Part shown: one piece after another, positions 2,309 through 31,900 of the stretch
How the letters are laid out: each line of letters starts with the position of its first letter
Numbering within the stretch: the first letter of the stretch is position 1
Origin: a virus
Direction: 5' to 3' (one strand)
Virus record (IMG/VR): IMGVR_UViG_3300021961_000367
Location: 1 to 32,164 of that record
Length of the DNA stretch: 32,164 nt
Translations under genes and position numbers: made by a program
Notes under the pieces: model-generated
Seen by the model: only the letters and a program-made list of their open reading frames with translations
What the model was told of the DNA's origin: nothing
The model's database searches: none

Positions 2309-2577
2309 TTCTCAACGAAGCTCAGGCGCTTGTATGCGGCGCGCGTCGTGAAGCCTACGGTCACCCGCGCGTGAACCATGCGGCAACCGCGGCCATGATG
2401 GAGGCGTATCTGCGGCGACGTTACGGGGTCGCGCAGTTCGACGCCCGCGACGTCTGCATCTTTAATATCTTGCAGAAGGTCTCTCGCCTCGCGCAGACGC
2501 CCGACCACCGCGATTCACTCGTGGACATCGCCGGGTACGCGGCCAACTTGGAAGACATTAATGCCACGGAAATATAG
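2305..2577 (+). CDS. DUF6378-like phage protein
   Basis: A 90-residue helical protein from ATG 2305 (ATGA overlap). The pattern AREAYG near residue 14, PRVNHAATAAMM, then ILQKVSRLAQTPDHRDSLVDIAGYAANLE is the signature I associate with DUF6378 phage proteins. Those are small all-alpha proteins that recall the MazG-like helical fold, with a conserved K-x-x-R-L and H-x-D-S-x-x-D-x-x-G-Y. No biochemical role is established for them, to my knowledge. The helical layout hints at nucleotide binding, but I see no proof of pyrophosphatase residues. It ends inside the next gene (17-base overlap). Confidence 0.75.
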   Translation: MILNEAQALVCGARREAYGHPRVNHAATAAMMEAYLRRRYGVAQFDARDVCIFNILQKVSRLAQTPDHRDSLVDIAGYAANLEDINATEI

Positions 2578-3757
2578 GCGGCTTTGCGACGAGTGCGGGG
2601 AATATTATGAGGGGATTGGCGCGCGGTTCTGTTCGCCCCGATGCAATGACAACTCCCGACGTCAGCTCGCCGATAAACTACCTCCGCCGAGCGAGGAGAT
2701 TCAGCGCGTAGAAGATGACGACGAGCTACGCCTAACGGTCCTTGGTTCGACGTCAATAAAAACGGTCGACGAATTGCTGGCGCAAGCTGATGTCGACATT
2801 GACATATGGGAACCCCTTCCCGACAGCGTACAGCTTCGCAAGTGGGACGTGGCGACGAAGATAAACGACCGGCCCGCCGTTGTGCCGTGTTTTTATGTTG
2901 CCGTCAAACTGCGAAAAAAATGGGCCGCGACGGACCTGCCCACCCCAATCACGCTCAAGATCACACCGCCCAAGGCCAGGCCTCGTAAGCGCAACCATCG
3001 GGTCTCGGTCCACTATTCGGACATTCATTTTCCTTATCACGACGAGCGCGCGCTTCGCATTCTATATCAAGTGCTGGAAATGGTCGCGCCCGATGTCGTC
3101 GTCGATCACGGCGACACGCTCGACTGCGAGAGCATCTCCCGCTGGCCGAAGGACCCCTTTCACCGCATTTCGCTCGCGGAGGAGATCCGTGCGGCGGCTG
3201 AACATTTTGGCACAGTACATTCGCTGACGCCCAACGCCCGGCATATCTGGATTGAGGGCAATCACGAAGCCCGGCTTCGAAAGCTGATCTGGAGCTTGGC
3301 GGAAGATCGCCGGGGCGCTGAAATCCTGACGCTCGACGCGGTGCGCGATGCGCTGACCTGGCCCTCGCTCCTCGGCATCGGCGCCCTCGGCTGGGAGATT
3401 ATTGAGTATCCCAAGCACGTCCTCTTTGAGGACCGCCTAATTCTTTGCCACGGCGAGGCCGTGCGCAAGCATTCCGGCCAATCGGAAAAGGCCGAATACG
3501 AACATTACGGCAAGGGCGGGCTTTCGGGGCATACCCACCGCACGGGATTCTTCGGCCGTCGCGACTATAATGGTGTCCACGGCTGGTGGGGGCTCGGATG
3601 TCTCTGCAAAATCCGTGACGACTACACCTCTTTTCCGAATTGGGATCAAGGCTTCGCGGTGATCACTGCGACCGATAGCTTCGACCGCTATGCCGTCGAG
3701 CGCGTCAATATCTTCGACGGGACGGCCATCTTTCGCGGGGAAATGTTGCACGGTTGA
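2561..3757 (+). CDS. Metallophosphoesterase with N-terminal zinc ribbon
   Basis: A 398-residue protein. Residues 1-30 hold a zinc knuckle with Cys9, Cys12, Cys24 and Cys28 (CDEC, then CSPRC). A charged linker with predicted helices follows to about 145. The rest is a calcineurin-type phosphoesterase domain showing all its metal-binding motifs in order: SDIHF (Asp154, His156), HGDTLD (Asp185), GNHE (233-236), CHGE (His297) and GHTH (323-326). It should hydrolyse phosphomono- or diesters, perhaps nucleic acid ends or cyclic nucleotides; the substrate cannot be read from the sequence. The zinc ribbon suggests nucleic-acid or protein targeting. It is followed by a promoter-bearing leader. Confidence 0.88.
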   Translation: MPRKYRRLCDECGEYYEGIGARFCSPRCNDNSRRQLADKLPPPSEEIQRVEDDDELRLTVLGSTSIKTVDELLAQADVDIDIWEPLPDSVQLRKWDVATKINDRPAVVPCFYVAVKLRKKWAATDLPTPITLKITPPKARPRKRNHRVSVHYSDIHFPYHDERALRILYQVLEMVAPDVVVDHGDTLDCESISRWPKDPFHRISLAEEIRAAAEHFGTVHSLTPNARHIWIEGNHEARLRKLIWSLAEDRRGAEILTLDAVRDALTWPSLLGIGALGWEIIEYPKHVLFEDRLILCHGEAVRKHSGQSEKAEYEHYGKGGLSGHTHRTGFFGRRDYNGVHGWWGLGCLCKIRDDYTSFPNWDQGFAVITATDSFDRYAVERVNIFDGTAIFRGEMLHG

Positions 3758-4908: not shown

Positions 4909-5259
4909 ATGATGAACAAGGTCATTCTCATCGGTAACGTCGGCAAGGAACCGGAGAACCGCGTCACGCACAGCGGGGCTCCCGTCGTCAACTTCAGTCT
5001 CGCGACCAGCCGCTTCCGCAAGGAGGACGGGCCGGACTGGCACAACGTCGCCGCGTTCGGCAAGACGGCGGAAATCATTCAGAAATATGTGAAGAAAGGC
5101 TCTCGTATCGCGGTGGAAGGGCGCATCGAGTATCAAAAAAGTCAGGATCGCGTGTACACCAACATTATCGCCTCGTCGGTGGAGTTGCTGGGCGGCAAGG
5201 CCGAAGGCGCAGAGCGGGCCGTCGATGATTTCGAAGCCTCCGACGAGATTCCGTTTTGA
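4909..5259 (+). CDS. ssb: Single-stranded DNA-binding protein
   Basis: 116 residues with a single OB fold: NKVILIGNVGKEPENR at the start, VVNFSLATS, WHNVAAFGKTAEIIQKYVKKGSRIAVEGRIEY, and NIIASSVELLGG. It ends in an acidic tip, SDEIPF, the tail that bacterial-type SSBs use to bind partner proteins. It is shorter than typical host SSBs because the flexible linker is reduced. AAGGA at 4901-4905 serves ATG 4909, and a second ATG at 4912 is also possible. The stop overlaps the TTG start of the HNH gene. It protects and organises ssDNA for the annealing protein and replication. Confidence 0.95.
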   Translation: MMNKVILIGNVGKEPENRVTHSGAPVVNFSLATSRFRKEDGPDWHNVAAFGKTAEIIQKYVKKGSRIAVEGRIEYQKSQDRVYTNIIASSVELLGGKAEGAERAVDDFEASDEIPF

Positions 5260-5546
5260 AACGGCGTCAGCGATACGAAAAGCAGTTCGGTAACAAGGCG
5301 GAGTACATCCGCCAGTTGCCGTGCATCGCTTGCCACGCGGCCGCGCCGTCCGACCCGCACCACGTCCGCAGTCGCGGAGCTGGCGGCACCTCAAAGGATC
5401 TTGTGCCCCTTTGTCGCCACTGCCACACGGCCCTGCATCAGATGGGTGCGAAGACCTTTGCGGCGAGGTATGACGTCGATCTGAGGGCGAAGGCGGACCT
5501 GTACGAAGCGTGGTTTCACGAAGACCCTCAACCGTTGGGGTTTTGA
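5256..5546 (+). CDS. HNH/Ref-like nuclease-type zinc protein
   Basis: 96 residues from TTG 5256, overlapping the SSB stop. It shows Cys23-x2-Cys26, then His35-His36 in DPHHVRSRGAGG, then PLCRHCH with Cys53, Cys56 and His57, and His61. This HHxxSRGAGG...LCRxCH arrangement is found in small phage HNH proteins related to the P1 recombination enhancer Ref. It should bind zinc and may nick or cut DNA. Its position between SSB and the VRR-NUC nuclease supports a recombination or Holliday-junction-related job. Whether it is catalytic is not certain from sequence alone. Confidence 0.82.
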   Translation: MKRRQRYEKQFGNKAEYIRQLPCIACHAAAPSDPHHVRSRGAGGTSKDLVPLCRHCHTALHQMGAKTFAARYDVDLRAKADLYEAWFHEDPQPLGF

Positions 5547-5851
5547 TGACTGAACGCGAAATCTCCCGCGACATTCAGGGCTTGTTTCGTCTCGTCGGGT
5601 TTCATGTGTTCTCTACTGAGCAGGGCTACCGCAGAGATCCAGGCGGCACCCGCATGACGCCGGGTATCCCCGACCTATGGGTCATGGGGCACGGCATGGC
5701 GCTTTGGATCGAAGTCAAAACTCCGAAGGGCAAGCTCCGCGAGTCGCAGACTGCGTTCCGCGCGTGCTGTTTCGCCAACGGCGTTGACTATCAAGTGATG
5801 AGGTCCATTGCCGACGCGAAAGAGTGGCTATGGGAAAACGGCATTTTGTGA
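5546..5851 (+). CDS. VRR-NUC domain nuclease
   Basis: 101 residues from ATG 5546 (TGATG overlap). Almost the whole protein is a VRR-NUC module of the PD-(D/E)XK superfamily: TPGIPDLWVM with Asp43, then LWIEVKTPKGKLRESQ giving the E56-V-K58 catalytic pair and Gln68. Stand-alone phage copies are thought to act on branched or flapped DNA during replication and recombination. It completes an operon of annealing protein, SSB and HNH protein. A candidate promoter for the next gene overlaps its final codons. Confidence 0.92.
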   Translation: MTEREISRDIQGLFRLVGFHVFSTEQGYRRDPGGTRMTPGIPDLWVMGHGMALWIEVKTPKGKLRESQTAFRACCFANGVDYQVMRSIADAKEWLWENGIL

Positions 5852-5874
5852 TGAAAAAGATCCGAGACTATTAG
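5846..5874 (+). promoter_or_regulatory. Candidate promoter for the helicase-methyltransferase gene
   Basis: TTGTGA at 5846-5851 and TATTAG at 5869-5874 are separated by 17 bases, each matching four of six consensus positions. The surrounding 56-base gap is AT-rich against the local average. AAGGAA at 5895-5900 gives a good ribosome-binding site for ATG 5908. This suggests the fusion gene can be expressed on its own. Confidence 0.45.
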
Positions 5875-5907
5875 CTGTCAAACAATTCATTTTGAAGGAA
5901 ATCACGC

Positions 5908-8130
5908 ATGAACCGTGGCGAACGAAGTGAAATGTATAGCGCATTTTTAGAAGGAAAGGCTGTACGGGATGTGCCTACGGGCTTGGTAGTTGATGGGCCG
6001 CTAAATGATAAACTTTACGATTTCCAGCGTGATATTGTGCGGTGGGCTTTGCGGCGAGGGCGAGCCGCCGTATTCGCAGATTGCGGCATGGGAAAGACGG
6101 CGATGCAGTTGGTTTGGGCGCATTATGTACCTGGACGGGTGCTCATTTTGGCACCGTTGGCTGTCTCGCATCAGACTGTAAGGGAGGCCGAGAAATTCGG
6201 GATTGAGGTTCAATACGTGCGCGAACAACCAAGGGGCGATGGCATATATATCACCAATTACGAAATGCTTGAGCATTTTGAGCCATCTGCATGGCATGGC
6301 GTCGTGCTTGATGAATCGTCCATTATCAAACACAAGGACGGCAAGTATCGGTCGAGGATCATCGATTCTTTTGCTAATACGCCGTTTCGGTTAGCGTGTA
6401 CCGCAACTCCAGCTCCGAACGACTTCACTGAAATGGGCAACCATTCAGAATTCCTCGGAGTCATGAGCATGACCGAAATGTTATCTATGTTTTTCGTTCA
6501 CGACGGGGGCTCTACGCAGAACTGGCGGCTCAAGGGGCACGCGCAGTCGGATTTCTGGCGGTGGCTCTGTTCGTGGGCGGTCATGCTCCGCAATCCGGCA
6601 GACCTCGGATACGATGACGGTGGATTCACGCTCCCGCCGATCGCGTATCATGATCACGTCATCAGGACAGAAACGGCTCCTGACGGCTTCCTGTTTCCGG
6701 TAGAGGCGCAGACGCTTCAGGAGCGTTTGGCGGCGCGTCGGTCTACCATCGAAGAACGCGCGGCAGAGTGTGCTGCATACGTCAATGAATCCCCAGAGGA
6801 ATGGGTGGTGTGGTGCAACCTCAATGACGAGTCGTCGGCGCTTGCACGCATGATTCCCGGCGCTGTTGAAGTCCGCGGCTCGGATGATCCCGAATACAAG
6901 GAGGACGCGCTACTCGGATTCTCCGACGGGAAGTACCGGGTGCTAATTACCAAGCCATCCATCGCCGGGCACGGCATGAATTGGCAACACTGCCGAAACG
7001 TGGCATTCGTCGGGCTGTCCGATTCGTGGGAACAGTACTACCAGGCCGTGCGTCGGTGCTGGCGGTTCGGCCAGGACCGCGATGTGCGCGTTCACATTTT
7101 CACAGCAGAAACCGAGGGGGCCGTTGTGGCGAACATTCGACGCAAGGAACATGATGCTACGCAAATGGTGCAGGAGATGACTACGCATATGCGCGACCTA
7201 TCACGCGAGGAGGTACGCGGCGCGCACCGGGTAACGACTGAATACGTTACAGACAGCACGGGCGCAGGACCGTGGACCATGCATCTCGGAGACTGCGTTG
7301 ATGTGGTGGGTGGTATGCAATCGGCGTCGGTTCATTATTCGGTATTTTCCCCGCCGTTTGAGAGCTTATACACGTATTCGGCTACCGATCGCGACATGGG
7401 CAATTCCGCGACATCGGAGCAGTTCGCGGAGCATTTCGGGTTTTTGGTAAGCGAACTGTATCGAGTGCTCATGCCGGGACGTCTCTTGTCGTTCCATTGC
7501 ATGAACTTGCCTACATCTAAGGCGCGGGATGGCGTGATCGGCATTCGCGACTTTCGCGGTTCTCTTATTCGTATGTTTGAAAATGCGGGCTTTGTCTATC
7601 ACTCCGAGGTGTGCATCTGGAAGGATCCGGTTACGGCCATGCAACGCACGAAGGCGCTTGGCCTATTGCATAAGCAACTCAAGAAGGATGCGTGCATGAG
7701 CAGGCAGGGCATTGCGGACTACTTAGTCACGATGCGAAAGCCGGGAGACAACCCTGCCCCCGTCACGAATACCAACGACAGTTTTCCCGTCAGCCTGTGG
7801 CAGAATTACGCATCACCGATATGGATGGACATCAACCCATCAGATACGTTGCAATATCGTAGTGCGCGCGAACATGATGATGAACGCCACATTTGCCCAC
7901 TGCAACTTGACGTAATTCGGCGCGCGGTCAGGCTGTGGACCAACAAGAACGACATCGTTCTTTCGCCATTCGCGGGCATCGGCTCAGAAGGATATGTCGC
8001 CGTAGAAATGGGGCGCCGATTTATAGGCGTAGAACTAAAGGAATCGTATTACCGTCAAGCAGTTAAGAATCTCGGCGCCGCAGTAGAAACGACCCATGAT
8101 CTATTCTCAAGTGCGCCGGTCGATGCTTGA
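5908..8130 (+). CDS. SF2 (SNF2-like) helicase fused to N4/N6 DNA methyltransferase
   Basis: 740 residues in two parts. Residues about 35-430 form a superfamily 2 ATPase: Walker A CGMGKT (59-64), VVLDESS as motif II (132-138), TATP as motif III (165-168) and QAVRRCWRFGQ as motif VI (379-389), close to SNF2/Rad54-type proteins. Residues about 455-725 form a beta-class methyltransferase: catalytic SPPF at 481-484 first, then HICPLQ and SPFAGIGSEGYVAVEMGRRFIGVEL for SAM binding (motif I near 688-695). SPPF favours N4-cytosine, although N6-adenine cannot be excluded. No nuclease domain is seen, so it probably protects phage DNA by modification. The gene is visibly more AT-rich than its neighbours and has its own candidate promoter, which suggests transfer. 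Confidence 0.92.
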   Translation: MNRGERSEMYSAFLEGKAVRDVPTGLVVDGPLNDKLYDFQRDIVRWALRRGRAAVFADCGMGKTAMQLVWAHYVPGRVLILAPLAVSHQTVREAEKFGIEVQYVREQPRGDGIYITNYEMLEHFEPSAWHGVVLDESSIIKHKDGKYRSRIIDSFANTPFRLACTATPAPNDFTEMGNHSEFLGVMSMTEMLSMFFVHDGGSTQNWRLKGHAQSDFWRWLCSWAVMLRNPADLGYDDGGFTLPPIAYHDHVIRTETAPDGFLFPVEAQTLQERLAARRSTIEERAAECAAYVNESPEEWVVWCNLNDESSALARMIPGAVEVRGSDDPEYKEDALLGFSDGKYRVLITKPSIAGHGMNWQHCRNVAFVGLSDSWEQYYQAVRRCWRFGQDRDVRVHIFTAETEGAVVANIRRKEHDATQMVQEMTTHMRDLSREEVRGAHRVTTEYVTDSTGAGPWTMHLGDCVDVVGGMQSASVHYSVFSPPFESLYTYSATDRDMGNSATSEQFAEHFGFLVSELYRVLMPGRLLSFHCMNLPTSKARDGVIGIRDFRGSLIRMFENAGFVYHSEVCIWKDPVTAMQRTKALGLLHKQLKKDACMSRQGIADYLVTMRKPGDNPAPVTNTNDSFPVSLWQNYASPIWMDINPSDTLQYRSAREHDDERHICPLQLDVIRRAVRLWTNKNDIVLSPFAGIGSEGYVAVEMGRRFIGVELKESYYRQAVKNLGAAVETTHDLFSSAPVDA

Positions 8131-8326
8131 CCGACTCGCCAAAACGTGCGGCGACTGTCTCGGAATGCGAACGACGCCGTGCTACGATTGCGACGGCGAC
8201 GGGTGCCCGCGATGCCAAGACGGACAAATGCCCTGCGAGACTTGTCTCGGCACGGGCTTCGTGGGCAAGACAGACGAAGAAATTATCGAAGACATTTACC
8301 ACCGTCGAGGGCGACGAGATGACTGA
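8096..8326 (+). CDS. Small DnaJ-type zinc-finger protein
   Basis: 76 residues from ATG 8096, which overlaps the methyltransferase end by 35 bases; ATG 8123 is an alternative start that keeps the domain. Eight cysteines form four CxxC knuckles (18/21, 29/32, 37/40, 47/50), the last in CETCLGTGF. Four CxxC(x)GxG-like knuckles binding two zinc ions is the layout of the DnaJ cysteine-rich domain, but there is no J domain. The acidic C-terminal tail reads TDEEIIEDIYHRRG. It may bind unfolded protein or a host partner. The exact role is unknown. Confidence 0.78.
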   Translation: MIYSQVRRSMLDRLAKTCGDCLGMRTTPCYDCDGDGCPRCQDGQMPCETCLGTGFVGKTDEEIIEDIYHRRGRRDD

Positions 8327-8501
8327 TCTGCCAGAAATGATGACAAGCGCGGAGGTGCAGAAGTGGCTTGGCATTTCCAGGGCCACGTTGACGCGCCGCG
8401 TGAAGGATGGAGAGATCCCCGCGATTCGCGTGGGGCACGTTTTGCGCTTTGAGCGCGCGGAACTGCTGGCGTGGCTCAAGACCAAGGCGGTGGCGCGATG
8501 A
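8319..8501 (+). CDS. Excisionase/MerR-type helix-turn-helix protein
   Basis: 60 residues from ATG 8319. The frame is open further upstream, but that part overlaps the zinc-finger gene. The protein is one winged HTH of the HTH_17/excisionase type: MMTSAEVQKWLGISRATLTRRVKDGEIPAIRVGHVLRFERAELLAWL covers residues 7-53. Such proteins bind short DNA sites, either as recombination directionality factors or as small regulators. No integrase is visible in the window, so a regulator role is more likely here. It overlaps the next gene by ATGA. Confidence 0.85.
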   Translation: MTDLPEMMTSAEVQKWLGISRATLTRRVKDGEIPAIRVGHVLRFERAELLAWLKTKAVAR

Positions 8502-8805: not shown

Positions 8806-9226
8806 CGAGCATCGCCGCATAGCGGAAAAGGCGGCGAGGCGATACGGGAAAACCAAGTACCCGACATTTGACGACGTTATCAGTACGGCCACTCCCACTT
8901 ATGCGGGGAATTGCGCCAGCTCGACGCGCGCCGACATTCAGCTATGGCATGAAATCGCTGAATACGCTTTGACCAAGGCGCCGCTCTGGCGGTGCATTGT
9001 TTGCGGCAATCGCTTCAGCCGCGAAAGGCATTCAGCCACTTGTCACCCGAACTGCGCGATCGTCTGGTCCAGGCGTCGCAGTTATAAGATGAACAGCGAG
9101 ATGCTTTACGACATTGTCACCGCTTACGAGAGTGGCAAGTCGATTCGCGACACGGCTGAAGCTGTCATGGTCTCATTGGCAACCGCCAGAGCAGTCCTGC
9201 GAATGTGCAAGGTTGAGATTCGATGA
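8774..9226 (+). CDS. Zinc-knuckle protein with C-terminal helix-turn-helix
   Basis: 150 residues from GTG 8774; GTG 8795, just before the previous stop, is an alternative start. The N-terminal third is basic (RIAEKAARRYGKTKYP). Residues 74-94 hold a zinc knuckle with Cys74, Cys77, Cys90 and Cys94 (CIVCGNRF, then CHPNC). Residues about 111-145 look like a resolvase/Sigma-type HTH (LYDIVTAYESGKSIRDTAEAVMVSLATARAVLRM). It is probably a DNA-binding regulator. It is coupled by ATGA to the replication-initiator-like gene and may act in its control. Confidence 0.7.
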   Translation: MNAGSVAVLSDEHRRIAEKAARRYGKTKYPTFDDVISTATPTYAGNCASSTRADIQLWHEIAEYALTKAPLWRCIVCGNRFSRERHSATCHPNCAIVWSRRRSYKMNSEMLYDIVTAYESGKSIRDTAEAVMVSLATARAVLRMCKVEIR

Positions 9227-10035
9227 AAGGTTATATCCCCGCATGGCGGAAAATCTTCGACCCAGACCATCATCTCGCTCCATCGAAACGCGATCCCGCC
9301 TCAAGGCTCCACGCTTGGCTTGACCTCTGCGCCCACGCGACTCACCAGACCTACCAGCGTCGCGACATCGTACTCCAGCGCGGCGAGTTCATCGCCAGTT
9401 TACGGTATCTCGCGAGGCGCTGGCATTGGTCGCTTGCGCGCGTAGAGCGTTTCGTAAATGACCTCAAAGCGAGGACACAAATCGAGACGGTGCGCGAGAC
9501 ACTCGACGGCACAGTCTATCGCATTGTGAAATATGATACTTACGCGGTTTTCCACACCGAGGAAAGAGACACGCCGCGAGACGCAAAGCGAGACACTTCT
9601 GAGACACCTCCGAGACAAAAACAAACACAAGAAAACACAGAAATCACAAATACTATCGGGGGTAGTTTCACGAAAAACGAATTGCTTGAGGTCGCGAACG
9701 AGGTTTTGGGACGCCGCGTACTAAATAACGCCGAGAAATCTCGCAACAACAGCATCTTGGTCGCATGGCTTGGCACTGGCCGGAACCCCGACGCCATCAA
9801 CGCGGCCATTCGGGGACTCGCCTCAATGGTCGAGCGCCGCGCGACTGAAGTGGCTGGCTGGTTGAAGCCCGGCCAACCCATCGGACTCCGAGCTTTGCAC
9901 AACACATCAACTCTCTACGACCAGGGCGACGGCAAGGCGAAGCGGGTGCTGTTTGATGTTGCAGTTGAGGAGTTTTATCGCGGCAATCACAACGACGAAA
10001 GGAGGGTCGCCGGGTGGCAAAAAATAAGCGTGTAG
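9223..10035 (+). CDS. Replication initiator-like protein (phage replisome organiser type)
   Basis: 270 residues from ATG 9223. Residues about 3-95 match the winged-helix N-terminal domain of phage replisome organisers: GYIPAWRKIFD, SRLHAWLDLCAHATH, RGEFIASLRYLARRWHWSLARVERFVNDLKA. A low-complexity linker follows, rich in T, R, E and Q (about 115-145). The C-terminal part is helical (NELLEVANEVLGRRVLNNAEKSRNN, then ATEVAGWLKPG). Such proteins bind the phage origin and recruit host replication proteins. With no polymerase or replicative helicase in the window, this phage should rely on host replication machinery. The origin itself is not identified. Confidence 0.78.
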   Translation: MKGYIPAWRKIFDPDHHLAPSKRDPASRLHAWLDLCAHATHQTYQRRDIVLQRGEFIASLRYLARRWHWSLARVERFVNDLKARTQIETVRETLDGTVYRIVKYDTYAVFHTEERDTPRDAKRDTSETPPRQKQTQENTEITNTIGGSFTKNELLEVANEVLGRRVLNNAEKSRNNSILVAWLGTGRNPDAINAAIRGLASMVERRATEVAGWLKPGQPIGLRALHNTSTLYDQGDGKAKRVLFDVAVEEFYRGNHNDERRVAGWQKISV

Positions 10036-10399: not shown

Positions 10400-10590
10400 G
10401 CGCCAGACCGCAGTTATCAATTGAGCATTACACGAAAAAATGTGAGGTCTGCGAGGATTATTACGCGAAACCCTCAACGACTCCGTGGGGACGTTGGAGC
10501 CGCCGTAGATTTTGCTCTTTGGAGTGCTGGTGGAAGACGCGGCCCAATTGGAACAGATATGCGATCAAATCCGAAAAGGGGACAGTATGA
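10387..10590 (+). CDS. Small zinc-ribbon protein (second copy)
   Basis: 67 residues from ATG 10387; GTG 10396 would give 64 residues and a GTGA junction. The zinc ribbon reads KKCEVCEDYY, then RRFCSLECWW, with C-x2-C...C-x3-C spacing and an intervening W-rich loop (TPWGRWSRRR). The layout parallels the protein at 10014, so the two are probably diverged copies. The basic, tryptophan-rich face suggests nucleic-acid binding. It overlaps the next gene by ATGA. Confidence 0.72.
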   Translation: MEQVSARPQLSIEHYTKKCEVCEDYYAKPSTTPWGRWSRRRFCSLECWWKTRPNWNRYAIKSEKGTV

Positions 10591-18575: not shown

Positions 18576-19556
18576 ATGGCTATCGGTAAGGCATCAGACT
18601 TCAAGATTTACCAGGAGCAGGTTCACGGCGGATTCGTCGAGACCATCCAGCAGTTCGTCGAGGGCTTTAACACCGCGTCCGGCGGTGCCATTCGGCTTAT
18701 CGACTCTTTCCATCGCGGCGACTACTTCCAGGAGTCGTTCATGGATCTCGTCCCGTCGCTCGTGACCCGTCGGGACACGACCTCGGTCTCTGCCGCGACG
18801 GATCTTGCGCCGACGTCCGATGATTTCATCGGCGTGAAGCGCAACTACAAGGTCGGCCCGGTCGCCAATACGCTCGATGCGTGGCGCAAGATCGGTCAGG
18901 ACCAGGAAATGCTGTCGTTCGTTGTCGGTCAGCAGATCGGCAAGGCTATTCCGCAGGCGATGCTGGAGGCCGCTCTCATGTCGCTTGAGGCCAAGCTGGA
19001 CAGCGTGGCCGCGCTTGAGGAGGACGACACTGCCGCGACCATCACGACCGAGGGTCTGGTCGATGCGATGGCGAAGCAGGGCGATGCGGCGCAGAACATT
19101 GCGTGCATCGTGATGCACTCGAAGGTCTACTACGACCTCCTGAAGGATCAGATCACCGACGCCGTGTATCGCGCGAACGGGCTGTCCATCATGGAGGGTA
19201 CGCCCGCGACGCTCGGCCGTCCGGTGCTGGTGACCGACTCCGCCTCGCTGGTCGAGGTTGATGGCGTGTCGGCTGGCATCGATGCCTATAGCTCGCTCCT
19301 TCTGTTCTCGAACGCGGCGACCATCAAGGTCAGCGAGCCGCCGACGGTCGTGACTGAGCTTGTCACCGGCCTTGAAAACCTCGTTTACCGTATGCAGGGC
19401 GAGGGCGCGTACACCGTCTCGCTCCGTGGCTGTCAGTGGGATACCGCGAACGGCGGTGCCAACCCGACCGACGGCGCGCTTGCTACGGCGACGAACTGGG
19501 ACACCGTGGTGGCGAGCAACAAGCTCCTGCCCGGCGCTATCCTGAAGACCCGCTAA
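18576..19556 (+). CDS. Major capsid protein
   Basis: 326 residues from ATG 18576 with a GAGG site upstream. The N-terminal arm (KIYQEQVHGGFVETIQQFVEGFN) and the body with VGPVANTLDAWRKIG, IPQAMLEAALMSLEAKLDS, VMHSKVYYDLLKDQI and TLGRPVLVTDSA follow the HK97-fold capsid pattern. Codon use is strongly biased to C/G-ending codons compared with its neighbours, as expected for the most abundant virion protein. No protease delta domain is seen at the N-terminus. A strong UUCG hairpin follows the stop. Confidence 0.88.
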   Translation: MAIGKASDFKIYQEQVHGGFVETIQQFVEGFNTASGGAIRLIDSFHRGDYFQESFMDLVPSLVTRRDTTSVSAATDLAPTSDDFIGVKRNYKVGPVANTLDAWRKIGQDQEMLSFVVGQQIGKAIPQAMLEAALMSLEAKLDSVAALEEDDTAATITTEGLVDAMAKQGDAAQNIACIVMHSKVYYDLLKDQITDAVYRANGLSIMEGTPATLGRPVLVTDSASLVEVDGVSAGIDAYSSLLLFSNAATIKVSEPPTVVTELVTGLENLVYRMQGEGAYTVSLRGCQWDTANGGANPTDGALATATNWDTVVASNKLLPGAILKTR

Positions 19557-22017: not shown

Positions 22018-22208
22018 GGACCCACCCCGAGCGCGCGTTTCGGTTTAGGCTCGCGCGGGACCTCAAGATGACGGTCGGGGAGCTGGAAGAGCGCATGAGC
22101 CACCGCGAATTCTCCGAGTGGGCGCTGGTCTACAAGATCGAACACGAACAACGGCAAGAGGCGGAAATGGACGCACAACTCGTCGCGCGGCATCGGGGCC
22201 GTAAGTAA
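21706..22208 (+). CDS. Tail assembly chaperone, -1 frameshifted form (GT-type)
   Basis: Slipping back one base at 22008-22014 (A AAA AAC) lets the ribosome read CTG at 22014 onward for 64 more codons to TAA 22206-22208, giving about 167 residues. The added part contains FRFRLARDLKMTVGELEERMSHREFSEWALVYKIEHEQRQEAEMD, the well-known T-region motif of siphovirus chaperones, and it has no good start of its own in this frame before it. This form should bind the tape measure and recruit tube subunits. The zero-frame stop is only one base past the slip site. Confidence 0.88.
22008..22014 (+). promoter_or_regulatory. -1 programmed ribosomal frameshift site
   Basis: The heptamer A AAA AAC is in the X XXY YYZ register of the upstream frame. 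The zero-frame TGA is at 22015-22017. GC-rich sequence (CGAGCGCGCG, GGCTCGCGCGGG) follows from about 22028 and could form a stimulating stem. Confidence 0.88.
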
Positions 22209-23860
22209 TGGCGACCATCGCCCAGCTTGCCGTCATTCTGTCACTGGATAAGCGCAACTTCAGTGTCGGATTACAGCAGGCTCAGAATGAAGCAGAGCAG
22301 GGCCAGCGCAGGCTTGGTAATATTACCGGACAGACCGTCAAAAGTTTGGCTTTGACGGGCCTCGCTTACTACGACACAGCGAAACAAGTTGCCCAGGCCC
22401 TCGATCAAATCGCAACGCGCGGCCTACAAGTAAACGACGTCTCCACCGCATTCACTGCGCGAGTGGGTGACCAAGATGTAGCACTCCAACGTCTGCGCGA
22501 AGCGACTAATGGCATGGTCTCAAGCTATGACTTGATGACGCAGGCCAATATCTCCCTGACGCTTGGGTCGGCTAAGAATATTTCGCAGTTTGCCGATATG
22601 GCGGCAGTGGCTCAAAAACTGGGCCGGGCGTTGGGGTTGGACGCGGCTTTCGCATTGAACTCGCTGAATATAGGTATCAGCCGTCAATCGAAATTGATTC
22701 TCGACAACCTGGGAATCATGGTTGACATCGAGCAAGCCAATCTTGCCTATGCGATCTCTTTGAACAAATCGGTCAAGGAATTGACGGATCAAGAGAAGGC
22801 GCAGGCTTTTACCAACGAAGCAATGCGGCAGGCGCGCGTAGCCGCTGATGCCATGAGTGTCTCCGTTGATTCGAGCGGGATGGCTTTTGCAAGGTTGAAA
22901 ACGAGTCTCGTCGATCTCAAAGACGCACTTGCACAACAAGGCGACGAAAGTGTGCGGGTTAGAAGTCTATTTGAATACCTGGAAGGAGGCGTCAGCACGT
23001 TCACTAATTTGATAAGTGGAAATGGGCGTGCCGCCTTAATTGATTATACAAATTCAATGCTTGCGTTGAGTACGACTGTCTCGGGCATTGAGACGGAGAA
23101 AGTGGCTTCGGGGTTTGCATATCTTAACAGTCAAGCGGACCCCATTTATTTGGAAGGTTTTGTAGTGGCAGTGGACAAAGTCGATGAGGCAATGCAACGA
23201 CTACGACGACCGGCAGAACCCATCAATATCCTTGGCTTTGGTCTCGAGTTAGACGAGGAAATCGAAATCCTAAAAACTAGCATTGGCGAATTCTTCGAAG
23301 GATTCCGCCAAGGTGGCGAGGAAGTCACAAAACTTGAGGAGGCGATCAATCCGCTGACGGGCGCACTCAACGACTATGGAACCGCATCTGCGATCATTGC
23401 GCGAGCCGAAGAGGAGCGCCGCAATTTTTTGCCAGATCTGACGTCAGCGGTGCATGGACAGAAAAACGCCATTCAGGCTTATACCGAAGAAGTCTTTAGA
23501 GAGATTTCGCACCAAGAAATGCTCAACGGCGCACTCAAGGAGCAGATTAGTCTGCGACAACAGTTGAGCACATTTCGGGGCATCCTTGGAGGCATTGCCG
23601 GTATAGCCGGAATGTTCTCGTTCCTTTCGCCCGTCACCAATTTCATTAGCGGCGCAAGCCGTGGGCTGGGATTGTTTGATAAGTTGGGGCTCTTTCCGAA
23701 GGCTGGGGCCGCACCGATGGCCGAATTCAGTGGGGCCATGCCATCCGCCTCGCCCGTCGTGGTCAATCTCTACGGTCCCGCCATGTCTCAGCTTGTTTCT
23801 GACATCACGGTCGAGCAGAACCGGGCGGTCACCTATCGCCGCGTGGCTAGGGTCGCATGA
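22208..23860 (+). CDS. Tail tape measure protein
   Basis: 550 residues from ATG 22208 (TAATG overlap). The N-terminus (LAVILSLDKRNFSVGLQQAQNEAEQGQRRLGNI) is typical of tape measures. The rest is mainly helix with many Gln, Ala and Leu. Hydrophobic segments lie near residues 486-520 (FRGILGGIAGIAGMFSFLSPV, FISGASRGLGLF). It fixes tail length and is released on DNA ejection. By the rule of about 0.15 nm per residue, the tail should be near 80 nm, which is short. The stretch around 22560-23500 is more AT-rich than the rest of the tail operon. It overlaps the next gene by ATGA. Confidence 0.9.
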   Translation: MATIAQLAVILSLDKRNFSVGLQQAQNEAEQGQRRLGNITGQTVKSLALTGLAYYDTAKQVAQALDQIATRGLQVNDVSTAFTARVGDQDVALQRLREATNGMVSSYDLMTQANISLTLGSAKNISQFADMAAVAQKLGRALGLDAAFALNSLNIGISRQSKLILDNLGIMVDIEQANLAYAISLNKSVKELTDQEKAQAFTNEAMRQARVAADAMSVSVDSSGMAFARLKTSLVDLKDALAQQGDESVRVRSLFEYLEGGVSTFTNLISGNGRAALIDYTNSMLALSTTVSGIETEKVASGFAYLNSQADPIYLEGFVVAVDKVDEAMQRLRRPAEPINILGFGLELDEEIEILKTSIGEFFEGFRQGGEEVTKLEEAINPLTGALNDYGTASAIIARAEEERRNFLPDLTSAVHGQKNAIQAYTEEVFREISHQEMLNGALKEQISLRQQLSTFRGILGGIAGIAGMFSFLSPVTNFISGASRGLGLFDKLGLFPKAGAAPMAEFSGAMPSASPVVVNLYGPAMSQLVSDITVEQNRAVTYRRVARVA

Positions 23861-24678: not shown

Positions 24679-25946
24679 TGAGCGACCTGCTTTTCTTTGC
24701 TGGCGGCAACTGCCTAGCGCGTCACGGTACTCTCGTGTGGCAGACGACGGCAGACGAGGACGCAAGCGCCGAGACGCACACACGCTCGGGCACCGCGCGG
24801 TCCTATGGCCGAGACGGCAATCTACGAAACACCGACGCTAATGTGCCGTCCTTGATGTGGCACGACACCGACTCGGACAATATTCGGGAGCCGTTTCTGC
24901 TCATTGAGGGCGAACGTACCAACCTGAACACGGAAGACGATCTTTCGGCCTGGACTACGAGCGGCACCATTACCGTGACGGGAAGCGTTGCGGATCCCGC
25001 CGAAGGGACGACCGCGTACACGGTAGCGACAACATCGGGCGGTTCTTCGACCTATATCTATCGGACAATCAATCCGACAACTAGCACGGTGAGCGTGAGT
25101 TGGATTGTGGCCAAAAACTCCGCGCCCAATGGGTCGCAGGATTTCCAACTGTACGACACGACAGCCGCCACGGATCGCATTCACCTCCGCATTCAAAGCT
25201 GGGGCGCGTCCGGCCCATCGGTCAGCGCGCAGGTTGGGACCCTCATCGGTGTGCGGACACTCGGGAGTGGATACTATCAGATTCAAGCCTATACCGAGGC
25301 CGTTGCGACGGGCAACACGAACGAGCTACGCATCTTTCCCGCCGCCAACAATGGGCAAACGGGGTCGTTTGATATTTACCGGCTAATGGTTTTTGATGAT
25401 AAGGTGCCTCTGCTGTCCGTGGTCGATGAGGGAGCCACGCATCAGAAGGACGTTTTCTATGCGCCGTTCCCCCATCCGCCGCAGGAAATGACGGTCTATC
25501 TTCGTTTCGACGAACGCGGTTCAATCACGGCAAGCAATAAAACGCTCATTCATATTGGATCAGCGACGGCGACGGCCGACCCTCGCCTAATTGTTTCCCG
25601 TGACACATCGGTCGCGAAGTATTCGGTCACGTTTGATAATGGCACTACGGTTAATAGCGCCAACGGCAACAACCTTACCACGCCCAATTTTAACGATCTC
25701 GTCGAATTGCTTGCGACATTGGACGCCAACGGCAACGTCCAGATTTCCCAGTCAATCAATAGCGGCGCTATTGATGTGGGCGCGGCATCTAGCACGACGG
25801 CGACGATTCCGGCGGCATGGGCCGCAGAGCGTCTATACATCGGATCGCGGGGTTCGTCGGGCACAACCCATCACTCAGTTGTGGCAATGTCGGACGTCAA
25901 AATCGCAAGGGGACTCAAAACCATGGCGCAGATGAGGGCACTGTGA
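24678..25946 (+). CDS. Lectin-like (LamG/concanavalin-type) tail protein
   Basis: 422 residues from ATG 24678 (TAATG overlap). The N-terminal part (FFAGGNCLARHGTLVWQTTAD, RSYGRDGNLRNTDANVPSLMW) leads to a lipase-GDSL/CBM-like beta region. The C-terminal part has the jelly-roll style of LamG domains: MTVYLRFDERGSITASNKTLIHIG, KYSVTFDNGTTV, LVELLATLDANGNVQIS, AERLYIGSRGSSGTTHHSVVAMSDVKIARG. Such domains bind carbohydrate, so it may help host surface recognition. It overlaps the hub-fibre gene by GTGA. Exact virion position is not shown. Confidence 0.72.
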   Translation: MSDLLFFAGGNCLARHGTLVWQTTADEDASAETHTRSGTARSYGRDGNLRNTDANVPSLMWHDTDSDNIREPFLLIEGERTNLNTEDDLSAWTTSGTITVTGSVADPAEGTTAYTVATTSGGSSTYIYRTINPTTSTVSVSWIVAKNSAPNGSQDFQLYDTTAATDRIHLRIQSWGASGPSVSAQVGTLIGVRTLGSGYYQIQAYTEAVATGNTNELRIFPAANNGQTGSFDIYRLMVFDDKVPLLSVVDEGATHQKDVFYAPFPHPPQEMTVYLRFDERGSITASNKTLIHIGSATATADPRLIVSRDTSVAKYSVTFDNGTTVNSANGNNLTTPNFNDLVELLATLDANGNVQISQSINSGAIDVGAASSTTATIPAAWAAERLYIGSRGSSGTTHHSVVAMSDVKIARGLKTMAQMRAL

Positions 25947-28900
25947 GACACGGCGTTACCGATGCGCTCCGGCAATACCTGGAGGGCGTACCGACCAAGG
26001 CGCGCCCGATTCTCGAAACCCTCACGACAGCCGCGACCGACATTCGCGATCATTATAGCGATTGGCTGACTGCCGATTCGCTCACGGGCCTTACCCCTAC
26101 GGTTGAATGGGTACAACTACAGGGCTCGGGTCTAACGACAATCCTTGAAAACACGACACAAAATGCGGGCGCGGACATTACTGCGCTCACGGCCCCGCTT
26201 TCATCCCCGCTGAATGTTGCGCTGATCGAGTGGAGTGAGGCCACGACGGCACCGGAAGACGAAATACTCGGGGCCACCGCCTACCTGGATCCGCGACGAG
26301 ATGGCGGCTCGCCGGTAGAGGTTGCACGCTTCTACGCGGCCATTTTCCAACTGGTCAATATCACGGACGAAGGCGGCGAGCAGGTTTGGAATCTTCGCCA
26401 GCTTGCGGCTGATATTGTCGACGCGGATGAGAACGGCGCCGCTGGCAATGTCTCGTTTTCATTTGGGCTAAACGGTCGCGGCCCGGTTGTTGGCCCTCGC
26501 GCGCCCATCATCGAACGTGGCACCGTCATCGACTACTATGCCAAACCGGCCACGGTTCTCATGATATGGGCGATCAAGGCTGACGGCTCCGACGCAGGGA
26601 ATGTCGCGTGGCGATGTGACGCAAATGCCTCACAGGTCACATCCAACGGGCACGTCATCAGCCGTCGCACCTTGACCGTGCTGGATGATGAATTCGCAAC
26701 CGCGCCGCTCCAGTACACAATCAGCACCGCACAATCGGGCGTCCCGGTCTGCTCTATCACGAATAACGGCACGTTTAGCGATGCGACGATTCAGTGGACG
26801 GGCGACGGCAACGATTTCGACCTAGGCCAGACGCCGGGCGCCGATACCGACCTTCAGTTGACGCTCCAATACGCGACGCCGAATGATTCGGAGGTGCGCG
26901 GGTATCTTTACGACAATAATTCCGCCGCCTGGGTTCGCTTTTACGACGGCGACGTCATCGGGCAAGATAATTCGGCCAACCCGGCTGTAGTTGCTGGCGA
27001 CATTTACGCCAACAACGGCGCAGACCTGAGTGGTGTTTCTCGGTTGCAGGCGTATGACGTCAAGGTTGAGCTGGACGCCTCCACGGGTGGCCGTCACACC
27101 CCGCGTCTTTTCCGCGTCGGGCTCATTGAGGTGGAGCGCGAGGTTCTCGACGGCTTGGTTGATTTTGGCGAGACTGCCTATGCTATCGACCCGGTGACCA
27201 GCCAGTCGGAGATTCCCCAACTCAAGGTATTTCTTGCTCGTGACGGTGTGCGCGATTATCGCTCTTGGGCAGAAGAACTGTTCGCCAGTTCGGCGCTGAA
27301 TAAGACCGAGTTTCGGATTTGGGTCGGCCATCCCGATCTAGCGCGGCAGGATTGGCTTCACATCGACGACTATATCGTCGCTGGCTATAGCCCGAGCGCG
27401 ACCGGGATTGCCGTTGATTGCGTGTCGTCGCTCCAGTATGCCCTCGCTACGATTCCGCCCGAGAGCGGGAACGCGCGGAGCCCCATCGTCTTCGATGGCA
27501 CAACGCTTCAGGCGACCTACAACAGCGTACTGAACACGCACGTTGGTCTAGCGACTCGCTATCGCGGTGCCGGTATCCAGGACAATACCACCACCGTCGC
27601 CAAGACCATCGACAAAAGCATCGAAGCCATCGACGTTCTGCGCGAGCTGACGTTCCTTGATGGATCGGCGCTTATTTCCTCGCAGGGTCGGTTCAAGGTC
27701 CAGCGCATTGTCGATGCGACCGACCCGACGTTCATCGAGGCGCCGCTCGTCGCATTTGAGCGCGACGAGGTAGAGGTGACAGCCGTGACGGCGGGCTTTG
27801 AACGCCGCATCACGCAGTTCGGCGTGCCGTATGGATGGGCCGACGGCGAGTACGCGGGCGAACGCGAGACAAGTGCGCCTACGACGGTGCTCGACAACTT
27901 CGGACTGCGCGGCACGCTCGGCAAGCAAATGCTCGACGATTCGATCGCGCAATGGATCGACACGGCGGCTCTGGCCGACCGCATTGGTGACCGAATGATC
28001 GCGCTGTTCGCGACCGGCTGTATTCAAATGCGTCTGCGCGCCGCTGTACCGCATCCGCATCTGGAGCCAGGCGACCCTATCGCGCTCGATCAAGACGTCT
28101 TCGTCGGCTACGACCCACTCAATTCGCGGTCGCTTCGTGGCCGGGCAGGAATGCGGGGCCGTATTGTCCAGTGCCACGACATCATGGGCACGGATTTTAC
28201 CGTCTGGCTTCTGCCCGCCGTCAGTAGTGGGAAGACGCAGATTACGGTCGTTAACACACTCAAGGGCCTTGGCATTTCGTCTTCGGATGTCCCGTCCGGT
28301 GCGGTGACGCAATATGAAGGCGACATCAACCACAACGCCTTGCTCAATTACGAAGCGAACCGTCACATCGACCACGCGGCCGTCTCAATCTCAACGGACT
28401 CCGGCCTCGACGGTGGCGGCGATCTGACGGCGTCGCGCACAATCTCGCTTGCGTTCAATGAGCTTTCCGACCGCGACTTCGCTGGCAGTGACAAGCTGGT
28501 CTTTTATTCGCCAGACGGCGGCGGGCACTTCACCGACATCGCCTCGGGTATCCCGATCTCGGTGTTTCAGAATACCTCGCTTCTCGAGACGATTACGGCG
28601 GGATCAGGAATCGATGTAACGGGTTCAGGTACGTCGCGCACGGTTGCAGTTAAGTATTCTGCGGGATCGTCCAACGTCATCACTTCCGCCCCGAATACGC
28701 CGATCACCGTGACGGGCTCGGATGCGATCATCGTCGCGGATGGCGGTCTTACTGGTGCGGTCGAGGCGGTTATCCTCGACACGATTCCGGTCAGCGTGTT
28801 TCTGGATGACAATACATACCTGACGCCCGGCGAGGCCGTTACCTCAATCACAGCAGGCGCGCTGATTGACGTCACGGGAACCGCTACGGTGCCGATTATT

Positions 28901-31900
28901 GCCGTCGATCTTACCGAACTCGGTACGGGAGGCACGCCGGTCGTTACGGACGAGTTGGTGTTTATTGATTCTGGTGTTCAAAGCAAGATCGCGTTTAACC
29001 AAGTGCCCATCACTGTTTTTCAGAACACTTCGCTCATCAATACGATCAGCGCGGGCACTGGAATCGCTGTCACGGGCTCAGGAACGTCGCGCACGATTTC
29101 CATTGACTACGATGCGTCGAATCTCATCACCGACGCGACGGATGCCGTATCGGTTGCCTCGGGCGACTGGATTCTGCTTGCGGACGCGGACGCGACCCCG
29201 AACAATGGACTGCGGAAGGCGCAGGTCTCCACTTGGCCGTACAAGGGCACCGTCACTTCAGTCACGGCTGGCCTCGGCCTGACATCAACCGGGTCCGATG
29301 CAATCACGCTCAATGTCGGTGAGGGTGCGGGCATCTTGGTCGATGCGAATGATGTTTCGCTCGACTTCAGTGCTGGCGGGCTGTCTTCAGCTACGGCGGC
29401 CAGCGGCGACTTCTTTGCGTTCTATGATGTCAGCGCACCAGGAATGCGGAATTCGAGCGCAGGCACGATCCCGCTTTCTATTTTTTTAGATGACCTTGGG
29501 TATAAGAACGTCCAAGGCGGGGCCGGAATCACAGTTACATCGGGACCGACCTACAACACGATCTCGGTAAATGGTGCAAGCGGTGGCTCTGGTTTTTTCC
29601 AGACCGCGTGGGATAACACCACGACCCCGATCTCTACCGACGCGATGGTTTTTGGCGATGGCGGGCTCACGGGTACGGCCTCGACCGTGCTGTTTTCAGA
29701 TGTTCCGGTGGGCATCTTTCAGAACGACGGCACCTATGCGCTCAACTCGGCACTCACCAGTCATGTTAACAACACCAGCAACCCGCACTCAGTAACCAAG
29801 TCTCAGGTCGGCCTCGGCAATGTCGAGAACACCGCACTCTCCACTTGGGCGGGCTCAACTGCAATCACCACGCTCGGGACGATTGGCAACCTCACAGTCA
29901 GCGGTAACCTGACCGTTGACACGAACACGCTGTTCGTCGATGCGACGAATAATCGTGTCGGTATCGGTACTGCGAGTCCGAGTGCTTTGTTGCATATCAA
30001 TGAATCGGGTAGTCCAATAGTAAAAATAACTCGCGAAGAAGCATCAATAACAAACATAGAATCACTAGCAGTGCTTGCGTTCGGTGGTGATACGGGGTCC
30101 GGTCACGTTACAGGGGCTCAAATAGTAGCGGCCGCAAAAAATACTTGGACGGGAGCAAGTACTGGAGCTTATTTGAGTTTTTGGACAACCGAAGACACGA
30201 CCACGGGTCATACGGAAAAAGTTAGAATTGACCACAACGGCAACGTCGGTATCGGTACTGCGAGTCCGGCCGAAAAATTGGAGGTTATCGGGAGCACTAA
30301 CCTTGGTGGTACCGGGAATAACCAAACCAAAGTGACACGGCTGGGGGCCTTTTCCATTGAGGACGGTACTCCCGGCGGCACAAGATTCGGTTCCTATGGT
30401 TTCCAGTTGTTCAACGCGAATACAAACAAAACCTCGACCGCACGGAGGATCGCGCTCACGAACGCACTAGGCGGTAATAAGTTCGCCATCATCAGAAGTG
30501 TGGATGCTACTACGGACCCAGCCATAGACGGCGCAAACGGTGCGCTCAGTTCAGGGACAGCAGATTTTGTAATCGACAATGCTGGCAACGTCGGTATCGG
30601 TGAAGTTTCGCCACCCCAACGGCTAACTGTCAGGTCTAACGTCGGTACCAATAACACAGCTACTCCACTCATCGCCATAGAAAGCGACCGAAACGACTAC
30701 TATGCGGCAATTGGCCACTATAGGAGCGGCGACTCCACGAGGATTGGGTTCAGTTTTTATACAACTGATTCTACCGCTCCCACGGAAAAGATGCGTATTA
30801 CACCGTATGGTCAAACTCTTGTAGCGGATGGAAGCGCTATTTATCCTACATATTCGTTCCTGAACGACGCCAACACCGGGATGTACTATGTGTCCGCGGA
30901 CACTCTCGGGTTTACTACAGGCGGCTCCGAACGGATGCGTATCGCCTCAACCGGCGAGACCACTTTCTACGGCCCCGTGAAACCCGGCGCGAACAATACC
31001 TACGCGCTAGGTGCGTCCGGTGCCGCGTGGGCTAAGGTCTGGACCTACGACCTGGATGTCGCGAACAACACCATCTTCGGTGGCAACCTCACGGTCGGGA
31101 ATACTTCTGGCGACCTCTTTATCCCGAACGGTCAGGTTCTCGCTGACGGTGGCGGGACCGTAAGCGCGCCGTCGTACTCGTTCGATAACGACCTGAATAC
31201 GGGTATCTACCCGGCGGGCGCGGACACTCTTGGGTTTGCTACGGGTGGAGTGGAGCGCGTTACGATTGCCTCCAACGGCAACCTAGCCGTTGACACGGAT
31301 ACGCTGTTCGTCGATTCGGTGAATAATAGGGTTGGTATCGGTACTACGAGTCCAAGGACTGCGCTACAAGTTGGTGTCGAATCAAGTATTGGTGGAAATG
31401 CGCCGAAGGTTGCCATAGCATCGGCCGGTTCGTCGGCATCCTCAACGGAAAACACATTTATCTATTTTGCGCGCTCCGGATACTCTGCGGCAATTGTCGG
31501 CATGGATTCCTCTGGTGCTGGGGCCACGGCAGCCAACAATATTTTCGTGATAGCGACAGAAACCGGAAAGGGCGGTATTGATTTTCGTACTGGAGGAACT
31601 TGGTCCTCGGGACTTCAGGGAGGGACCAGCCGTCTTCGTATTCTTGACAACGGCAACGTCGGTATCGGTACTGCGAGTCCTAGTGCGAAACTCCATGTCG
31701 CAAACGGCACTGCGAACAACATAGAAATAAACGGCAACTATATTCAAAGTTTCAATCGTAGTGGTACACCCGGTTATCAAACTTTGCCATTTTATGCCAG
31801 CAGTTATGCATTTAATGTCGGCAACGTCGGTATTGGTACTGCGAGTCCTGCCCGGCTCCTCGAACTGAAGGCTGGAGAACCGTACCTCCGGTTCAATCCA

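Follow-up and report, generated by a model that had tools for sequence, protein, structure and literature searches.

A phage-encoded fusion of a SNF2-type ATPase and a beta-class DNA methyltransferase, with an obligate pairing of the two halves and a widely shared putative target-recognition segment

The fusion of a SNF2-type ATPase to a beta-class DNA methyltransferase described here is a member of the PHROG_16, or 'DNA helicase/methylase', family of phage proteins. The gene itself is ordinary; what is less expected is that the ATPase and its methyltransferase form an obligate pair and that the target segment is shared. The protein may be an ATP-driven methyltransferase which tracks along duplex DNA and places a mark at a fixed target in the DNA of the phage itself, with anti-restriction as the likeliest benefit, a reading to which we would give a little over an even chance. 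It is encoded in a 32,164-base viral record, referred to below as the window, whose gene content is that of a tailed phage (a GP3-like packaging protein, large terminase, portal, head morphogenesis, scaffold and major head proteins). The features relevant to the analysis are these:

4909..5259, + strand: single-strand DNA-binding protein (SSB) gene (PF00436, E 2e-28)
5256..5546, + strand: DUF968 / RecA-dependent (Ref-like) nuclease gene (PF06147, E 2e-7; PF16786, E 4e-4)
5510..5851, + strand: VRR-NUC nuclease gene, directly 5' of the fusion (PF08774, E 8e-6)
5893..5907, + strand: Shine-Dalgarno-like GAAGGA and spacer before the ATG at 5908 (read from the sequence)
5908..8130, + strand: SNF2-type ATPase / beta-class DNA methyltransferase fusion, 740 amino acids (open reading frame, Pfam, PHROG, AlphaFold2, Foldseek)
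6010..7197, + strand: SNF2-like ATPase, residues 35-430 (Pfam SNF2-rel/Helicase_C; motifs kept in 80-81 of 81 sequences)
7273..8073, + strand: beta-class methyltransferase, residues 456-722 (Pfam PF01555; match to TTHA0409 by sequence and fold)
7621..7872, + strand: putative target-recognition segment, residues 572-655, between motif VIII and motif X (placed by beta-class motif order)
8127..8501, + strand: HTH_17 DNA-binding/excisionase-like open reading frame, overlapping the fusion stop (PF12728, E 5e-12; phrog_66)

A first-pass annotation made from the sequence had proposed that one polypeptide carries both an ATPase and an SPPF methyltransferase, and the single intact open reading frame, together with Pfam and PHROG profiles, bears this out. 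The stop at 8130 stands as first called, whereas the start lies at the ATG at 5908 and not at 5846, a position which takes in the intergenic gap. Pfam places N6_N4_Mtase (PF01555) at residues 476-720 (E 6e-18; 66 bits, cut-off 26.7) and Helicase_C at residues 317-388 (E 1e-6; 29.2 bits, above its cut-off), while SNF2-rel_dom at residues 104-187 (E 4e-5) scores 23.2 bits, just below its cut-off of 24.9. As had been predicted, the same search detects no nuclease domain within the 740 residues at E 0.1. An independent viral contig carries the same locus, with 99.97% identity over 6,661 bases including the gene, which is thus not an assembly artefact.

The ATPase half has the features of the SWI2/SNF2 group: two RecA lobes, a QxxxRxxRxGQ-type motif VI and a SNF2 fold according to Pfam and Foldseek. 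Its motifs comprise a Walker A (G60/G62/K63), DE135-136, ATP166-168 and QxxRRxxRxGQ at 379-389 (QAVRRCWRFGQ). In the methyltransferase half, motif IV (SPPF, 481-484), of the form (S/D/N)PP(Y/F/W), precedes the FxGxG of motif I (SPFAGIGSEG, 686-695, with FAGIG at 688-692), which is the order of the beta class, and is followed by an acidic residue, E709. Comparison of the window protein with 80 viral relatives found G60, G62, K63, D135, E136, R383, R386, SPPF and E709 to be invariant in all 81 sequences; the remaining motif positions differ in at most six, with the exception of T165, which is T or S. An AlphaFold2 model built from an alignment of 35 relatives has a pLDDT of 80. Foldseek matches its ATPase half to the SNF2 remodellers Mot1, CSB and ISWI, and its methyltransferase half to TTHA0409 (PDB 2zie/2zif/2zig), a putative beta-class modification methylase which lacks an ATPase and is the best match by both sequence (22-23% identity) and fold. 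From the intact motifs it is plausible that the protein modifies DNA.

The PHROG_16 profile aligns residues 22-733 to positions 242-922 of 986 (E 3e-72), and this match over both domains means that the complete domain arrangement is one already known as a phage family. The suggestion that similar fusions occur in phages is confirmed by tblastn, which finds relatives in 367 phage records, 305 of which cover 80% or more of the protein at a single place; many of the matching records are annotated 'DNA helicase/methylase'. A scan of viral contigs gave at least 600 matches, and each of the 80 loci retained from it is one fused open reading frame. Relatives are also present in bacterial and archaeal genome assemblies from many phyla, where they are presumably mostly prophages. 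Family examples with the same ATPase-then-methyltransferase order over their full length include Synechococcus phage S-CBS3 gp40, which is 57% identical to the window fusion, Arthrobacter phage Seahorse gp83 and Mycobacterium phage Charlie gp56. The actinophage, Pseudomonas and Paracoccus fusions form a distant branch, with an ATPase only 32-36% identical to that of the window and a longer, different target-recognition segment. S-CBS1 is without the methylase that its close relative S-CBS3 carries (PMC6157547); the gene, being absent from some close relatives, is therefore not essential everywhere. A literature search turned up no functional work on this subfamily.

To avoid ascertainment bias, a further set of loci was chosen by the ATPase half alone and the methyltransferase sought within the fetched flank. 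A cognate methyltransferase was found at 80 of 80 such loci, fused in 53 and encoded by a separate nearby gene in 27, which makes the pairing obligatory for the ATPase. The two halves are likewise matched in number in annotated phage records at 80% coverage (314 for each half, 305 for the whole protein). Among 80 loci from genome assemblies, 37 are fused and 43 split, although assembly frame errors may inflate the latter count. Several isolated phages encode both halves as separate adjacent genes; SwagPigglett gp71/72, Gordonia phage Holliday gp68/69 and Dulem virus 39 have the same two domains as the window protein but in two polypeptides, and the actinophage pairs differ further in a target-recognition segment only about 40% identical to that of the window. 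The halves stay close even in Alteromonas phage XX1924, where their order is reversed and one gene lies between them, and in Flavobacterium phage snusmum9-1 an endonuclease gene separates them. On quick trees built from each half, fused and split forms are intermingled (5 changes), which we take to mean that fusion or fission occurred repeatedly while the two halves remained co-located.

In beta-class enzymes the target-recognition domain lies between motif VIII and motif X, and restriction-linked domains of this kind usually diversify fast. The corresponding segment of the window protein (572-655) appears instead to be conserved. Its conservation in the first viral scan was set aside as ascertainment-biased, because 77 of the 80 loci contain a pattern flanking the segment, and the genome-contig scan had a peptide inside the segment as its query; when conservation was measured again on the ATPase-picked loci, the signal persisted. 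There the segment has a mean identity to the window of 69.6%, whereas the ATPase averages 60.7% and the N-terminal methyltransferase core 60.3%, and the identity of the segment exceeds that of the ATPase in 66 of 77 loci, figures to be read in the light of these loci still being the window's nearest relatives. The window's class of segment, at 69-71% identity alongside ATPases at 53-58%, occurs in cyanophage S-CBS3, in vir525 (assigned a Methanosarcinales host), in the gut virus Dulem 39 and in an EBPR podovirus. Given the usual fast diversification of such domains, this suggests a common methylation target across viruses, while the segment may also hold residues for catalysis or motor contact. 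AlphaFold2 is least confident here, with pLDDT of about 41-52 in blocks covering residues 571-600.

Other classes of segment exist. Five loci (L199, L213, L217, L228 and L240) have a clearly different one, at 37-40% identity; their ATPases are near that of the window (58-60%), making them a natural specificity-swap set from which the target motif might be worked out. The split pairs of Gordonia and Mycobacterium phages also have a different segment (39-40%), and a third, longer one is found in the distant branch from Arthrobacter, Mycobacterium, Pseudomonas and Paracoccus phages. An obligate ATPase combined with one dominant segment could indicate a single conserved mark, serving replication, recombination or packaging, or the masking of a near-universal host target; we put this forward tentatively, and just as tentatively that it should replace the idea of protection tailored to the restriction enzymes of each host. 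The segment is not diversified by host, so simple matching of host restriction systems would fit poorly.

The locus had been pictured as a self-contained, AT-rich unit with its own candidate promoter and ribosome-binding site. The fusion gene has a GC content of 54.7%, compared with 57.6% for the window and 50.0-62.5% for its other genes. Its codon usage, checked against its neighbours as had been recommended, lies at a distance from the rest of 1.39 times the null, which is not unusual: the genes at 9223-10035 (1.37) and 22208-23860 (1.39) equal it, and those at 18576-19556 (1.78) and 25817-32164 (1.61) exceed it. Since both measures fall inside the spread of the window's own genes, the notion of an AT-rich island was rejected. 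No sigma-70-like site is present between 5000 and 8700, where shuffled sequences give 2.2, and the best promoter found by eye (TTGTGA/TATTAG, with a spacer of about 16 bases) was discarded, matching at just 8 of 12 positions. The GAAGGA located 8-9 bases 5' of the ATG is a plausible candidate for the ribosome-binding site. Far from being self-contained, the gene directly follows the SSB, DUF968 and VRR-NUC run and overlaps the next open reading frame, the listed start of which is a TTG at 8127, a later start being possible.

The VRR-NUC and DUF968 genes adjoin the fusion, contrary to the earlier view that no nuclease lay nearby; the accompanying remark on restriction genes stands, in that the genes scanned included no typical restriction endonuclease. 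The window VRR-NUC also matches phrog_5702, 'Holliday junction resolvase' (E 1e-10), and is possibly a resolvase. With a composition ordinary for the phage and a position behind recombination and repair genes, the gene does not resemble an acquired AT-rich island. Mosaic acquisition is nevertheless likely, for near relatives have the gene in common with the window but next to nothing of its flanks. A megablast search of phages with the window's first 25 kb returned no match. Almost the sole other DNA common to the window and those relatives is a small CxxC...FCSxECWW zinc-finger-like segment at 10428-10590, 2.3 kb from the fusion, which has about 75% DNA identity to one directly 3' of the fusion in L001, L178 and L180. 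Upstream, in the same early region, a metallophosphoesterase gene (phrog_221) at 2561-3757 encodes an N-terminus which weakly matches HNH-endonuclease PHROGs.

In the relatives, sequences read by eye reveal recurrent neighbours: a second SF2 helicase (26 loci), a RecE-like exonuclease (23), a VRR-NUC-like protein (15), RecT (14), DnaN (11) and a VapE/primase-like protein (11). Annotated neighbours include RecE/RecT in Charlie, SSB and RdgC in Pseudomonas phage CF24a, and DnaN in Paracoccus phage Pthi1 and Seahorse. No homologue of the window's VRR-NUC was found in the relatives by phmmer, whereas the Pfam family profile run on whole records does find VRR_NUC matches, in 15 of 50 related records and at a median gap of 2.2 kb to the fusion; relative to a uniform placement, this closeness falls short of significance (p 0.06). 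Judging from these neighbours, the gene sits in a replication/recombination module and not in a restriction locus. Additional methyltransferases also occur near the fusion. In the close relative L001 a C5-cytosine methyltransferase open reading frame, Dcm-like by eye, lies just 3' of it (L001:3503-4717) and belongs to a cluster which occurs in six of the compared loci, and Seahorse has a second annotated DNA methylase four genes after its fusion (L091:8911-10368).

Type III and Type ISP restriction-modification enzymes also link a DNA methyltransferase with an SF2 ATPase, but the window chain is without a nuclease domain at the Pfam threshold given above (E 0.1). Among the 25 PADLOC matches listed, all are to generic Type II, Type III or orphan methyltransferase models and none is system-specific. 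A further analogy is with the 'methylase-helicase dyad' of phage P1 DarB and other polyvalent proteins, which likewise combines a methyltransferase and a SNF2-type ATPase in one polypeptide and for which DNA-tracking modification has been proposed (PMC5512222). Iyer et al. state that the coupling of SWI2/SNF2 ATPases with DNA methylases is widespread among phages, and proposed modification during DNA tracking as a counter to restriction, by analogy with Type III systems and with DarB, which protects phage DNA in cis against Type I enzymes, as the archetype (PMC5512222). DarB-type proteins have a gamma-class NPPY/F methyltransferase before the helicase, together with LPD36, and are virion proteins, whereas the window fusion has a beta-class SPPF enzyme and places the helicase first in 740 amino acids. 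It lacks an N-terminal gamma-class NPP(Y/F) motif, and its match to phrog_11801 covers just residues 28-73 (E 0.009). The fusion would work like the DarB dyad, yet is not a member of that group owing to its opposite domain order and different methyltransferase class.

In the mechanism that we favour, the SNF2-type ATPase would, like others of its family, use ATP to track along duplex DNA, and would carry the beta-class amino-methyltransferase or be gated by it. The SPPF motif makes N4-cytosine a more likely product than N6-adenine. The enzyme would mark the replicating DNA of the phage itself at a short, fixed target, and since the gene sits with SSB, Ref-like and VRR-NUC genes, methylation is probably applied to nascent or recombining DNA; the likeliest benefit would be a packaged genome resistant to host nucleases. 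Against this, the anti-restriction role of DarB stems from a different methyltransferase class and from virion delivery, and the replication/recombination setting is read from neighbours alone.

The main rival to anti-restriction as the leading benefit is a general role in replication or recombination, in which the motor would remodel forks, D-loops or protein roadblocks and methylation would serve not as a restriction shield but as a mark for timing, strand discrimination or packaging. We consider this unlikely, while recognising that RecE-like nuclease, RecT, DnaN, SSB, RdgC and primase genes recur as neighbours, that the dominant target-recognition class is common to viruses of many sources and that SNF2 remodellers are the best structural matches to the ATPase. 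In early phage operons, however, replication genes and anti-defence genes stand side by side, which prevents the neighbours from telling the two roles apart, and the gene is missing from some close relatives. It is less probable still that the fusion belongs to a phage-borne, Type III/ISP-like restriction-modification system, with the VRR-NUC or Ref-like nuclease acting in trans against unmethylated host or rival DNA. Both nuclease genes do lie directly 5' of the fusion, VRR-NUC recurs in related records, and endonuclease genes are found beside or between the halves in snusmum9-1 and Mycobacterium phage SwagPigglett. Nonetheless 35 of the 50 records have no VRR-NUC match (many records being fragments), and where present it is mostly 1-3 kb off, often behind the second helicase; the window's own copy resembles a resolvase, and the neighbours tested gave no PADLOC match. 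Finally, the slightly lower GC content and the near absence of shared flanks in the nearest relatives might have indicated a recently captured host orphan methyltransferase unit, carried as selfish cargo unrelated to phage biology. This appears very improbable and largely refuted by the distribution in phages, where hundreds of homologues form an old and broad family, and codon usage is ordinary among the window genes.

With 367 annotated phage records and at least 600 viral-contig matches, this family represents a common phage DNA-modification gene of putative function. If its target is fixed, the same methylated motif should be present in the virion DNA of phages with unrelated hosts. Such a shared motif, if found, would give the entire family a function and decide between an anti-restriction and a replication role.
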